Origin: Turneriella parva DSM 21527
GTDB taxonomy: Bacteria; Spirochaetota; Leptospiria; Turneriellales; Turneriellaceae
Assembly (NCBI RefSeq): GCF_000266885.1
Contig: NC_018020.1
Span: 62,001 to 126,000 of the forward strand
DNA: 64,000 nucleotides
Direction: 5' to 3'
A program made the translations under genes and the position numbers. How positions within the stretch are numbered: the stretch's first letter is position 1; every line of letters begins with the position of its first letter. Shown here one piece after another: positions 47,824 to 53,198 of this stretch. The notes beneath the pieces are model-generated. The model did no database searches. It saw only the letters and a list, made by a program, of their open reading frames with translations, and was not told the origin of the DNA.

Positions 47824-48951
47824 TTAAGGTGTTTTTGCCAGATTATCGATGTACTGGTGGTACCGATCGCTTTCGCCCTTGCGCGAAGAGAAACCCTTTA
47901 TAGCCACGCCAATCGCGAGATCATCTTGCGGAGTATACCCGGTATAACATATCTGCGTGAATACAGTTATCGGTTGCTGCAACTTGAAAATTACATCGAA
48001 GCTGAACCCCTTCTGGTGCACCAGAAACTTCTTGAGTTCGGGGTCGGTCACAACGAGACGCATGCCGCCGCGTGAAATATCGGCGATCGACTGGCGTTTG
48101 TTGATCAGCATCGTGTTCGAATCGCGCATCTGGTCGACCATTTCAAACGCAAGCATTTTCAGTTCGAGCGCTGTATCAATGCCAAGTTTCTTCTCGTGAG
48201 AAATCAGCTGAATAAAGCCGAGCGGAATCGAGGCGCCGTCGTGGCCCAGATAGATGATGGGCACGATCATCTCTGAAACGATCTTCTTCTTGCGATAGTC
48301 TTCCATTACTGTACCAATTTCGGTATTGAGGTGCTCGCGGTAGTCGACAAACCCATCGGTGTCTTCGGGCATATACGACAGCAAGTCTTGCGTGTCGTGT
48401 ATCATGAGAATTTTCATGGTCTTGCGAACAAGTTCTGTTTTCTCATCGTCTTTTTCAAAAATCTTAACTTTTACTTCATCAGCAAAATCTTTTAGCCGCT
48501 GTTGAAATTTCTCGAGGTGAATCTTAACCGAAGTGGGTACGTTAAAGAGCGAGGCGTTGATCGTATTGCGCGCGGCACGAATATTGTTCACGACAACCAG
48601 ATCTGAACTCATGGCGTAACGGGCAGATTTGCGTTCGTTCGCCGCGATTTTGACGTGCGCGACTGAAAACTTGTACTGGTTTCCGGGCAGCTTATCGCTG
48701 ATAGCGCCGACTATTTCGAGCTGCTTATTGAATGTGTGGTAGAGCGTCAGCTCGCCCTCAAGATCGCGCAGCGAATCAATGATCAGGCAATTCGGGTCTT
48801 TAAAATCAAGAACCTTGACTTCGATCTTCTCATAAAAACCCTTGATCATATAGGTTTTGCCAGCCGCGTATTGGCGCAGCATACCGGGCATCTTAGCCTG
48901 GTCTTCTATAATCTGGTATCTTCTTTCAGCCCGTTCTTTGAATACGCTCAT
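47824..48951 (-). CDS. DUF1577-like protein with C-terminal PilZ-like domain
   Basis: 375 residues. A helical N-terminal region, a middle part reading N-T-I-N-A-S-L-F-N-V-P and a C-terminal PilZ-like segment, R-Q-S-I-A-D-I-S-R-G-G-M-R-L-V-V, where the R-x-x-x-D/N-x-S-x-x-G pattern for c-di-GMP binding is visible. The overall architecture recalls DUF1577, a family I remember as restricted to leptospires. ATG 48951 lies 2 bp after the valS stop; a TTG at 48957 overlapping the stop is the alternative. It is likely coupled to valS. Confidence 0.65.
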   Translation of the reverse strand: MSVFKERAERRYQIIEDQAKMPGMLRQYAAGKTYMIKGFYEKIEVKVLDFKDPNCLIIDSLRDLEGELTLYHTFNKQLEIVGAISDKLPGNQYKFSVAHVKIAANERKSARYAMSSDLVVVNNIRAARNTINASLFNVPTSVKIHLEKFQQRLKDFADEVKVKIFEKDDEKTELVRKTMKILMIHDTQDLLSYMPEDTDGFVDYREHLNTEIGTVMEDYRKKKIVSEMIVPIIYLGHDGASIPLGFIQLISHEKKLGIDTALELKMLAFEMVDQMRDSNTMLINKRQSIADISRGGMRLVVTDPELKKFLVHQKGFSFDVIFKLQQPITVFTQICYTGYTPQDDLAIGVAIKGFSSRKGESDRYHQYIDNLAKTP

Positions 48952-48953
48952 GA

Positions 48954-51770
48954 TCAAGAGAGCGAAGACAGCATGTCGCGTACTCTGTCAAGGCGGGTAT
49001 TGTAATCGGCGAGTTTTTGCTTTTCGGCCTCGACCAGCTCGGCCGGCGCGCGATCGGCGAACTGCGGGCTGTCGAGTTTTGCCTGCGCTGCTTGTCTGCC
49101 TTTTTCGATGGAAATGATTTCTTTTTCCAGGCGCCCCTTCTCCCGTTCGATGTCAATCGAGCCAGCGAGATCAAGGTAAACTTCGACACCCTTGCGCAGC
49201 ACAGCGTGTATCATCTTGGTAGCCGGCTTGTCGAATTTCACCTCGCCGAGCCTTGCGAGGCTCACCAAAAAGGCGGAGTGAGAACGCACGAAATCCGCCG
49301 CGCTGGCGTCTTCGAGCATGACATGCACCGCGATTTTAGCACCCGGTTCGACCGAAAGTTCGGCCCTCACCTGCCGGATTTTTCCCGCGAGTTCCAGCAT
49401 TATGGCAGTGTGATTGTCGGCGGCGGCTGTAGGTGCGTGTGCGCCAGCCTTTGGCCAAGCTGACACCGTGAGCAATTTTGCGTCACCGCCCGGCAGAACA
49501 CTGGCGAGTTCCTCGGTGATAAATGGCATCGCGGGGTGCAAAAGGCGCAGCGCCGCGCGAAAGACTGTGTAGAGAGTGTAAAGCGCGCCGTCGCGCATCG
49601 AGTCATCTTTGAGTGCAACCTTGCTCATCTCGATATACTGGTCGCAGAAAGTTTTCCAGAGAAAGTCGTAGATCGCCAGCGCGTAGTCGGCAAAGTAGAA
49701 ACCTTCGAGCGCTGCATCGCATTTGGCAATGGCAACATCAAGCTCGCGCAGCACATATTCGTCGATCGCAGAAAGTTTTGGCGCAGCTTTCGGTAATTCA
49801 TATGCCTCGGGTGTATTCATGAGAATGAAGCGCGCGGTATTCCAGATCTTGTTGCAGAATGCCTGGTAACCCTTGAGGCGCGCTTCGTCGTAGATAATGT
49901 CTTTGCCGTCGGGCATGATGCTGATAAGAAAGAAACGGAATGCATCGGTGCCGTATTCGTCCATCTTCTCGAGCGGGTTGACAACGTTGCCCTTCGATTT
50001 CGACATCTTCTGCCGGTTGGCGTCGCGCACCAGCGAGTGGATGATCACTTTCTCGAACGGCGTCTTGTGCATGAAGTGCATACCCATCATGAGCATGCGC
50101 GACACCCAGAAGAAGATGATGTCGAAACCCGTGACGAGAGTTGAAGTGGGATAGAAATTATCCAGGAGAGGACTCCTTGGAGCTGGATAGTCCCCCTCCC
50201 GTCCTCCCCCGCTAGCGGGGGAGGTGCCGGAGGCGGAGGGGGAGCGCGATGGCCACACGTTTTCGATTTCTGCAATCTCCTGTGGCATCAGCGTCGAGAA
50301 TGGCCACAGCGCTGACGAGAACCACGTATCGAGCACATCTTTGTCGCGCTTGATGTTCTTCGACTTGCAGTGCGAACACTCCGTCGCATCAGAGACGCTC
50401 ACGGTCACACCTTCGCAGTCACTGCAATACCATGCCGGCACCTGGTGTCCCCACCACAGCTGGCGGCTGATGCACCAGTCTTCGATCTTGTTCATCCAGT
50501 CGAAGAACAGGTTCTCCCAGCGTTTGGGGTAAAACTGCGTCGCACCTGAAGTGACTGCGTTCACGGCCTTGTCGGCGAGCGGGCGAATTTTCACGAACCA
50601 CTGTAGCGAGAGGCGCGGCTCAACGACTGCACCCGAGCGGTACGAGTGTCCCACGCTGTGTCTATGCGGTTCAATTTTTTCAATCAGGCCGCCTTCGGCG
50701 CCGGCACCGAGGACATCCTGTCCGCCGGCGCTTTGGTGCGTCCATGCACCTAAATCTTCAACAATCTTCTTGCGGCAGGCCTCGCGGCTTAAGCCCTTGT
50801 ACGGGCCTGCAAGATCGTTCATGTGCGCCGAGTCGGTCATGACGTTCGTGAGCGGCAGGTTGTGGCGCGTGCCGGTGGCAAAGTCGTTGAAGTCATGCGC
50901 CGGGGTAATTTTCACCACGCCGGTTCCGAACTCCTTGTCGACGGAATCATCAAAGACAATCGGGATTAGCTTGTTGAGGAAAGGTACTTTAGCTTTCGCG
51001 CCTTTCAAATGCTTGTATCTTTCGTCTTCAGGGTGCACTGCCAGCGCCTCGTCGCCGAGAATTGTTTCGGGGCGCGTGGTTGCAACGAGCAGGTATTTCT
51101 TACCATCATGCTCCGCCCCCTCGAGTGGGTAGCGCACGTAGTAGAGGTGACCGCCGATTTCCTTATACTCCACCTCGATGTTCGACAGCGCTGTCTGGTC
51201 CTTCGGGCACCAGTTGATCATGCGCTCGCCGCGGTAGATCAAACCTTCGTTGTAGAGTTGCACGAACACGCGGCGAACGATATGGCTTAAGCCTTCGTCC
51301 ATCGTGAAGCGCTCCATGTCCCAGTTCACGCTCTCACCGAGCTGGCGCTGCTGGTGCGTGATCATGCCGCCCGATTCAGCTTTCCACTGCCACACGCGCT
51401 CTTCAAACTTTTCGCGCCCCATGTCTTCGCGGCGCAGGCCCTCTTTCGCGAGCAACCTCTCGACGACGTTCTGCGTCGCGATACCCGCGTGGTCGGTGCC
51501 CGGCACCCAGAGCGCAGCTTTACCCAGCATGCGCTGGTGGCGAATCAATATATCCTGCAGTGTGTGGTTGAGCGCATGGCCGAGATGCAGCGACCCGGTG
51601 ACGTTAGGCGGAGGTATAACAATACTGTAACAATCTTCGGGTTTGAGATCTGCATCCGCCTTACCGGTATTCTTATGGTAATCAAAGTAGCCCTCTTTTT
51701 CCCAGAGCGGGTACCACTTTTCCTGCAGCCCCTGCGGATTATAAACGGAGCCGAGTTCCTTCTTCGCCAT
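48954..51770 (-). CDS. valS: Valyl-tRNA synthetase, with palindromic-element insertion
   Basis: 938 residues. Class I synthetase: HIGH motif G-S-L-H-L-G-H-A, editing-domain T-T-R-P-E-T-I-L-G-D, and KMSKS in Q-K-M-S-K-S-K-G-N. C-terminal coiled coil near the end (R-E-K-G-R-L-E-K-E-I). Between N-V-W-P and D-N-F-Y-P-T-S, where other ValRS are short, lie about 29 residues of Ser/Pro/Gly-rich sequence encoded by two hairpins (see 50159-50249). The frame is kept across it. The first gene of a transcript running into the DUF1577-like gene. Confidence 0.95.
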   Translation of the reverse strand: MAKKELGSVYNPQGLQEKWYPLWEKEGYFDYHKNTGKADADLKPEDCYSIVIPPPNVTGSLHLGHALNHTLQDILIRHQRMLGKAALWVPGTDHAGIATQNVVERLLAKEGLRREDMGREKFEERVWQWKAESGGMITHQQRQLGESVNWDMERFTMDEGLSHIVRRVFVQLYNEGLIYRGERMINWCPKDQTALSNIEVEYKEIGGHLYYVRYPLEGAEHDGKKYLLVATTRPETILGDEALAVHPEDERYKHLKGAKAKVPFLNKLIPIVFDDSVDKEFGTGVVKITPAHDFNDFATGTRHNLPLTNVMTDSAHMNDLAGPYKGLSREACRKKIVEDLGAWTHQSAGGQDVLGAGAEGGLIEKIEPHRHSVGHSYRSGAVVEPRLSLQWFVKIRPLADKAVNAVTSGATQFYPKRWENLFFDWMNKIEDWCISRQLWWGHQVPAWYCSDCEGVTVSVSDATECSHCKSKNIKRDKDVLDTWFSSALWPFSTLMPQEIAEIENVWPSRSPSASGTSPASGGGREGDYPAPRSPLLDNFYPTSTLVTGFDIIFFWVSRMLMMGMHFMHKTPFEKVIIHSLVRDANRQKMSKSKGNVVNPLEKMDEYGTDAFRFFLISIMPDGKDIIYDEARLKGYQAFCNKIWNTARFILMNTPEAYELPKAAPKLSAIDEYVLRELDVAIAKCDAALEGFYFADYALAIYDFLWKTFCDQYIEMSKVALKDDSMRDGALYTLYTVFRAALRLLHPAMPFITEELASVLPGGDAKLLTVSAWPKAGAHAPTAAADNHTAIMLELAGKIRQVRAELSVEPGAKIAVHVMLEDASAADFVRSHSAFLVSLARLGEVKFDKPATKMIHAVLRKGVEVYLDLAGSIDIEREKGRLEKEIISIEKGRQAAQAKLDSPQFADRAPAELVEAEKQKLADYNTRLDRVRDMLSSLS
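50159..50249. repeat. Palindromic element inserted in frame in valS
   Basis: Two adjacent hairpins. First: TATCCAG (50159-50165) with CTGGATA (50183-50189), enclosing CTCC-TT-GGAG. Second: TCCCCCTCC (50191-50199) with GGAGGGGGA (50235-50243), enclosing a perfect 22-bp palindrome (50203-50224) centred on GCTAGC. The inserted codons encode about 29 residues rich in Ser, Pro and Gly. The inner core is of a type I recall from scattered bacterial genomes; this is memory, not a search. Confidence 0.75.
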
Positions 51771-51828
51771 GCGTTAGGGCTGGCTTTTGAGTCAGGGTGA
51801 AAAGCATTGATAGTACAGCCTATTGCGG

Positions 51829-51993
51829 TCACTTACCGCGAAAGAATTCATAAACCGCGAGTAGCGCTCCAACCAGGCCGATGGCCTGAATTAGTGTCTC
51901 TACGGTAGGTTTGAACTCATTGTACGTCGAAACTAGTAAGAGCAGGGTTGTCGCAATACCCGCACCCAGAAAAGCAAGGACGCGCTCGTTCAT
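51829..51993 (-). CDS. Small membrane protein, 54 residues
   Basis: M-N-E-R-V-L-A-F-L-G then two hydrophobic stretches (about 8-23 and 34-48), ending F-F-R-G-K. Its ATG overlaps the stop of a 39-residue membrane ORF by 4 bp. The longer frame to 52263 is not membrane-like and lacks a start site. No homologue recognised. Confidence 0.5.
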   Translation of the reverse strand: MNERVLAFLGAGIATTLLLLVSTYNEFKPTVETLIQAIGLVGALLAVYEFFRGK

Positions 51994-53063: not shown

Positions 53064-53198
53064 AGACCACCCGAAACCGCCGCGCATTTGTGCCGCCAGG
53101 CACAAACAAGAAAACGAAAACCGCGAAGCGTTCGCGTGGTGTTGCCTAAAAGGCAACACAGCGTTTTCGTTTTCTTGGCGGCGCTTGCAGGGTGGTCT
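53064..53198. repeat. Cloverleaf-like palindromic element, 135 bp
   Basis: Outer arms AGACCACCC (53064-53072) and GGGTGGTCT (53190-53198). Inside, a 15-bp stem pairs 53107-53121 with 53163-53177; inside that are CGCGAA-GCG-TTCGCG (53122-53136) and GTGTTGCCT-AAA-AGGCAACAC (53139-53159). It fills the gap between two convergent genes. Its architecture parallels the element at 19273-19423. Confidence 0.75.

Follow-up and report, generated by a model that had tools for sequence, protein, structure and literature searches.

Rickettsia palindromic elements (RPE; Ogata et al. 2000/2002, reviewed in PMC2229807 and PMC10969869) are palindromic, multicopy sequences that occur between genes and also, in frame, within conserved ones, and RPE-1 measures about 105-150 bp (PMC2229807). 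A protein-coding palindromic repeat outside Rickettsia is also known, the Wolbachia palindromic elements (WPE, cited in PMC2229807 and PMC3733652), whose host is a relative of Rickettsia. Intragenic GTAG and CGTC REPs were described by Di Nocera et al. 2013 (PMC3733652), the CGTC REP being defined by a CGTC tag, an 8-9-bp stem starting with AT and a CCA tail.

We compared with these systems a 55-nt palindromic unit located in frame in the valS gene of Turneriella parva, within a window of 64,000 nucleotides (the whole stretch of DNA analysed, to which all coordinates refer). The unit and the RPEs are alike in being palindromic and multicopy and in being tolerated between genes as well as within the frame of conserved enzymes, and for both of them a target-site duplication has not been established and no mobilising enzyme has been assigned. 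The functional features of RPEs were found here, namely a multicopy palindrome that is intergenic and in frame in unrelated genes and whose site is empty in relatives' orthologues, while the length of 55-60 nt is below the range given for RPE-1. By description, the unit is also set apart from RPEs by its GC-rich three-way junction and by its occurrence in Leptospirales and Patescibacteria; the same comparison of descriptions separates a family spanning two unrelated phyla from the WPE of a Rickettsia relative. Intragenic REPs (PMC3733652) share with the unit a small palindrome in coding regions and the gene classes concerned (DNA repair, tRNA synthetases and tRNA modification), but the 55-nt unit has a larger compound structure and no RAYT linkage. 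A GTAG REP was rejected, as the unit has no unpaired GTAG end and no Y1 gene was flanked by the repeat at 30 Y1 loci, and so was a CGTC REP, as the unit has no CGTC tag, no AT-headed 8-9-bp stem and no CCA tail. The MITEs (NEMIS, ERIC, RUP, QMITE) are likewise short and non-autonomous, with terminal inverted repeats; unlike them, the unit has no target-site duplication, is paired over nearly its whole length instead of carrying terminal repeats around a spacer, and was assigned no parent insertion sequence in a search for Y1_Tnp. No Rfam family matched positions 48900-51900 at E up to 1, and the open-licence papers searched contained nothing that joins Turneriella to a palindromic element or describes such an element in Nomurabacteria. 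The unit works like the RPEs but constitutes an apparently separate and undescribed family common to two phyla.

The host gene, valS (48954..51770, minus strand), is an open reading frame for a valine--tRNA ligase of 938 aa that scored above the cut-offs of NCBIfam NF004349 and TIGR00422. The unit lies at 50190..50244 on the minus strand, where the covariance model gave 76.6 bits, and it is delimited further by its copies in the genome and by the empty site of the congeners; read on the minus strand, it is CTCCCCCTCC GCCTCCGGC A CCTCCCCCGCTAGCGGGGGAGG ACG GGAGGGGGAC. Codons 510-527 of ValRS (50190..50243, minus strand) specify the repeat-encoded peptide SPSASGTSPASGGGREGD, which is predicted to be disordered. 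The spacing from DTWFSS to TGFDII is 72 residues here versus 53-54 in five congeners (G001, G002, G004, G005, and G006), 52-53 in other members of the family and 49 in the other families of the order, and the net gain relative to the congeners is 54 or 57 bp (18-19 codons, approximately 50190-50244). The initial annotation had recognised a palindrome in frame in valS, which stands, but had made it about 29 codons long with two nested hairpins, of which only the 18-19 codons are an insert. It had also suggested that the adjacent hairpin (50163..50189, minus strand) forms one compound unit with the insert, and this part did not hold. The residues PAPRSPLLDN encoded here align with GKVPQSEVLKN in the linker of relatives, and the hairpin is therefore host gene sequence, an ancestral ValRS linker outside the element. 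It folds weakly, by chance (z -1.9), and has no second copy: a genome search with 50150-50260 gave no match elsewhere for 50150-50181, the repeat matches being confined to approximately positions 33-102 of the query. AlphaFold2, run with 14 ValRS sequences, gave a mean pLDDT of 73.9 and values below 50 for residues 511-526 of the insert, between two helices. Because the input alignment was shallow and the catalytic signature loops of ValRS also had low pLDDT, this prediction supports a flexible loop and makes no statement on activity.

The compound unit is a single 55-nt three-way junction, resembling a cloverleaf and made of a 10-bp outer stem, a 3-bp hairpin and a 10-bp inner hairpin, with strong covariation. 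In valS, on the minus strand, the 5' and 3' arms of the outer stem lie at 50235..50244 and 50190..50199 (folds and pair counts), the small hairpin GCC-NNN-GGC lies at the junction (50226..50234; pair counts), and the inner hairpin CCTCCCCCGC-TA-GCGGGGGAGG, the target of the core palindrome searches, is a perfect 22-bp palindrome (50203..50224). The consensus of copies in both orientations is GTCCCCCTCC GCC-TTC-GGC A CCTCCCCCGC-TT-GCGGGGGAGG NTG GGAGGGGGAC. The outer stem corresponds to terminal inverted repeats, with 89.7% of cells paired; variants range from 55 to 60 nt, with paired ends of the type GT...AC or TA...TA. The isolated 55-nt unit had a folding energy of -41.4 kcal/mol for RNA and -22.4 for DNA (z of about -4), and none of 200 shuffles was as good. 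In a gapless set of 18 copies drawn from three sources, double changes were seen at four pairs (30 cells versus 14 in shuffles), with a covariation score of 0.164 versus at most 0.060 for slid pairings. With 62 model-aligned copies, which take in subfamilies with other stems (CCCCACCCC, CCTCACCCC), double changes were found at 17 of the 23 pairs (185 cells versus 60) and the score was 0.365 versus at most 0.084; this larger alignment leans towards the structure because it was fitted to it, and the gapless set is less circular. Four composite copies (L015, L016, L017, and L153) carry half a unit and a CCCCTCCCCGC..GCGGGGAGGGG hairpin within one outer stem, and look as if they had been recombined.

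The T. parva genome comprises 4,409,302 bases in two contigs. The search with 50150-50260 retrieved approximately 20 other places, with repeat copies 83-94% identical, and the core pattern gave 17 forward matches, of which 16 are perfect and one has two mismatches, versus 1 for a control pattern. The covariance model placed the unit at 28 or more distinct sites at E <= 0.001, a lower bound because 150 of the 1267 candidates were scored. In-frame copies with homologous protein on both sides were found in valS, queA, fmt, mnmA, recQ, feoB, and xdhB, in one half of a two-domain acyl-CoA dehydrogenase, in a protein without NCBIfam match that we take to resemble DUF4007 and near the start of a 269-aa protein; others lie at the C-terminal end of an SH3-like protein and of a 528-aa protein, and, as a rearranged mosaic, in ileS. 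The genome holds about a dozen in-frame copies besides that of valS, with gene identities given by NCBIfam, and the remaining copies are intergenic or directly upstream of starts (phosphofructokinase-like, flagellar-hook-protein-like, and queA genes). Three side observations were made. The ileS copy is apparently interrupted by a second palindrome, CGCCGGCTCCGCCCGCCGGAGCG, and the gene also has a threefold tandem repeat insert, ALGAQGLTPDTTSSSAS, that relatives do not have; a large RHS/SpvB-type open reading frame contains half a copy of the unit in frame; and, in the window, a 135-nt intergenic segment after a short-chain dehydrogenase gene (53064-53198) adopts a closed multi-hairpin fold (-78.8 kcal/mol, z -8.1) and may be a further palindromic element or else a structured RNA.

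All six frames occur among 34 in-frame copies, while the 14 of canonical length 55 use three (F1, 6 copies; R0, 5; R1, 3). These three frames give Ser/Pro/Gly/Ala-rich peptides, and the Arg-rich frames F0 and R2 are unused by the 55-nt copies. This bias hints at selection on the peptide, and it is a hint and not a test because the copies were chosen as open and some of them are orthologues. Selection for the absence of stops in all six frames was rejected, as 34% of the sequences obtained by shuffling the GC-rich consensus have no stop in any of the six frames, and the copy in valS has four open frames.

The covariance model found 9 matches in the nearest relative (G003), 0-2 in the other congeners and none in members of other families or orders covered by the search. 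G001, G002, and G007 have no copy at the acyl-CoA dehydrogenase site, which is empty there. Conversely, G003 has in-frame copies of its own in two genes, an allantoinase/dihydroorotase-like (amidohydrolase) gene and one that codes for 235 aa, and neither orthologue in T. parva contains one; two copies are at orthologous positions in both genomes (L146/L012 and L153/L015). The presence of both shared and lineage-specific copies indicates that copies were gained along the lineage and then inherited. Orthologous positions were found in G003, G002, and G001, but divergence near the junctions left no empty site exact to the nucleotide and makes the insertion junctions approximate; identity around the copies is only about 75-90% even for G003. 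The length of the loop varies among relatives at several affected sites (queA, ileS).

Other repeats were also seen in the congeners. The same acyl-CoA dehydrogenase loop carries a different in-frame palindromic repeat in G005 and another short in-frame hairpin in G004, and some loops seem to be repeated insertion targets. In G002, different palindromes, CCTTCTCCCGTAGGGAGAAGG and CCCTCTCGCTACGGGAGAGGG, lie at the C-terminal end of a gene that in T. parva has a copy of the unit at this site. Further repeat-like translated inserts (SPSPPPLGVRSGGG, PSTGSGQAHDG, DALRQAQGD, and LTPGPSPAGRGEKD) occur in amidohydrolase genes of G002 and G001 and at one other locus (L002), which suggests that the genus harbours several families of translated repeats that are unrelated to one another.

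When 84,980 genomes were scanned for CCCTCCGCCNNNGGCACCTCCCCCNNNNNNGGGGGAGG, 15 stretches were returned, mostly from Candidatus Nomurabacteria, the others being from Zambryskibacteria, one uncultured bin, the Spirochaetota bin G003, and one Aquimarina. Ten of the non-Aquimarina genomes were tested with the model and had 3-16 matches each in 0.5-0.8 Mb, some palindromes being counted on both strands, while the Aquimarina genome had none at the same threshold. The patescibacterial form ends in TA...TA and has an AT-rich tip, and most of its copies complete the outer stem beyond the searched pattern. Its in-frame copies are located in uvrC, recJ, polA, dnaG, a pcrA/uvrD-type helicase gene, cysS, lepA, fmt, purH, and iscS (NCBIfam), to which inspection added tig-, yraN-, and comF-like genes; when CysRS, Fmt, and LepA are compared with their solved counterparts, the repeat occupies either a gap or a stretch that is not conserved. 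Phages gave no match to the unit, and the plasmids searched gave just partial matches, on three Deinococcus plasmids. Transfer is an easier reading of the occurrence in two phyla than old descent with loss, because the unit is near-absent from most congeners and absent from the order's other families searched.

The flanks of the copies showed no target-site duplication (mean duplication-like length of 0.68 nt versus 0.60 in shuffled flanks) and no inverted flanks above those of shuffled flanks. A Y1_Tnp search of 18 genomes detected three Y1 transposases in T. parva and numerous ones in Nomurabacteria; none of those examined in T. parva is near a copy. The small patescibacterial genomes (G041-G050, 0.5-0.8 Mb) have up to 13 matches each to the Y1 transposase family, which is many for their size.

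The valS feature is very probably a copy of a palindromic mobile element of the non-autonomous type, for which we observed a multicopy family with a conserved structure, empty sites in relatives and open frames running through conserved genes. If this is correct, one strand of the 55-nt unit (55-60 nt in variants) would fold into the three-way junction, and an enzyme supplied in trans would have spread the element to new sites in the genome, in intergenic DNA and genes alike, leaving no target-site duplication. Genic copies would persist in surface loops, provided that the frame remains open. The valS copy would then add a flexible, Ser/Pro/Gly-rich linker of 18 residues, presumably tolerated and not useful, with a near-neutral effect on ValRS. 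The initial annotation had proposed a palindromic repeat translated in an essential gene, as in RPEs but in an unrelated lineage, and possibly mobile; both proposals agree with the present data, the open frames pointing to translation, and the empty sites of relatives and the approximately 30 copies elsewhere in the genome pointing to movement by transposition. The two objections named in that annotation, a loop of similar length in all close relatives and a hairpin confined to valS, are both contradicted by these empty sites and copies.

Mobilisation as a REP/REPIN element by a RAYT of the Y1 family, acting on a single-stranded DNA hairpin, is an unlikely alternative. It would agree with a palindromic, multicopy sequence free of target-site duplication, as Y1 transposition predicts, and with the Y1_Tnp genes of T. 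parva and Nomurabacteria, but the unit has no GTAG tag, the 30 Y1_Tnp loci examined included a single one (L189) with a core-like palindrome, a loose match, within 1.5 kb, and no Y1_Tnp was detected in G003 (assembly 83% complete), which has at least 9 copies. A domesticated regulatory hairpin, by which the valS mRNA would slow translation, end transcription or be protected, is improbable: the very stable RNA fold and the several copies near start codons would suit it, but gene, orientation and position vary from copy to copy, the gene context is inconsistent, the valS site of congeners is empty and no Rfam family corresponds. We give hardly any credence to a fast-evolving, GC-rich surface loop that is not mobile but grew by slippage and is palindromic by chance. 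The variable loops of queA and ileS are what slippage would give; the same 55-nt sequence with covarying stems is nevertheless found at approximately 30 loci unrelated to one another, in either orientation and, taken together, in all six frames, and this reading is already refuted because of these other copies.

The occurrence in two phyla could itself be an artefact of metagenome mis-binning or a convergence of GC-rich hairpins, since the patescibacterial genomes are metagenome assemblies and the first matches came from a pattern that fixes part of the sequence. This is very improbable, as the copies are within housekeeping genes of ten separately assembled genomes, belong to a lineage-specific variant and complete their outer stem outside the searched pattern, and as the genome of the window consists of one 4.38-Mb contig and one small contig. 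Returning to the mobile element, a wider proposal, which we make tentatively and for which the odds seem somewhat short of even, is that of a three-way-junction superfamily that moves horizontally between phyla (Leptospirales and Patescibacteria at least), survives as a translated disordered linker in the loops of essential enzymes and uses a mobiliser of a new type.

Protein-coding palindromes, formerly described as a peculiarity of Rickettsia, alongside a small number of intragenic REPs in other bacteria, are not confined to that genus. The same behaviour is found in a free-living spirochaete with a complete genome and in Patescibacteria, as one recognisable family whose structure provides an independent signature and whose covariance model can be used for searches. 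Movement without target-site duplication, the cost to the host enzyme and the recurrence of DNA-repair and tRNA genes as targets can be tested in a culturable organism. The family also explains the Ser/Pro/Gly-rich inserts SPSAFGTSPASGGGREGD, VPLPASPASGGGAEGGGG, and SPSQPPPQAGEVPKAEGD that housekeeping proteins carry in these genomes and that might otherwise be mistaken for lineage-specific adaptations.
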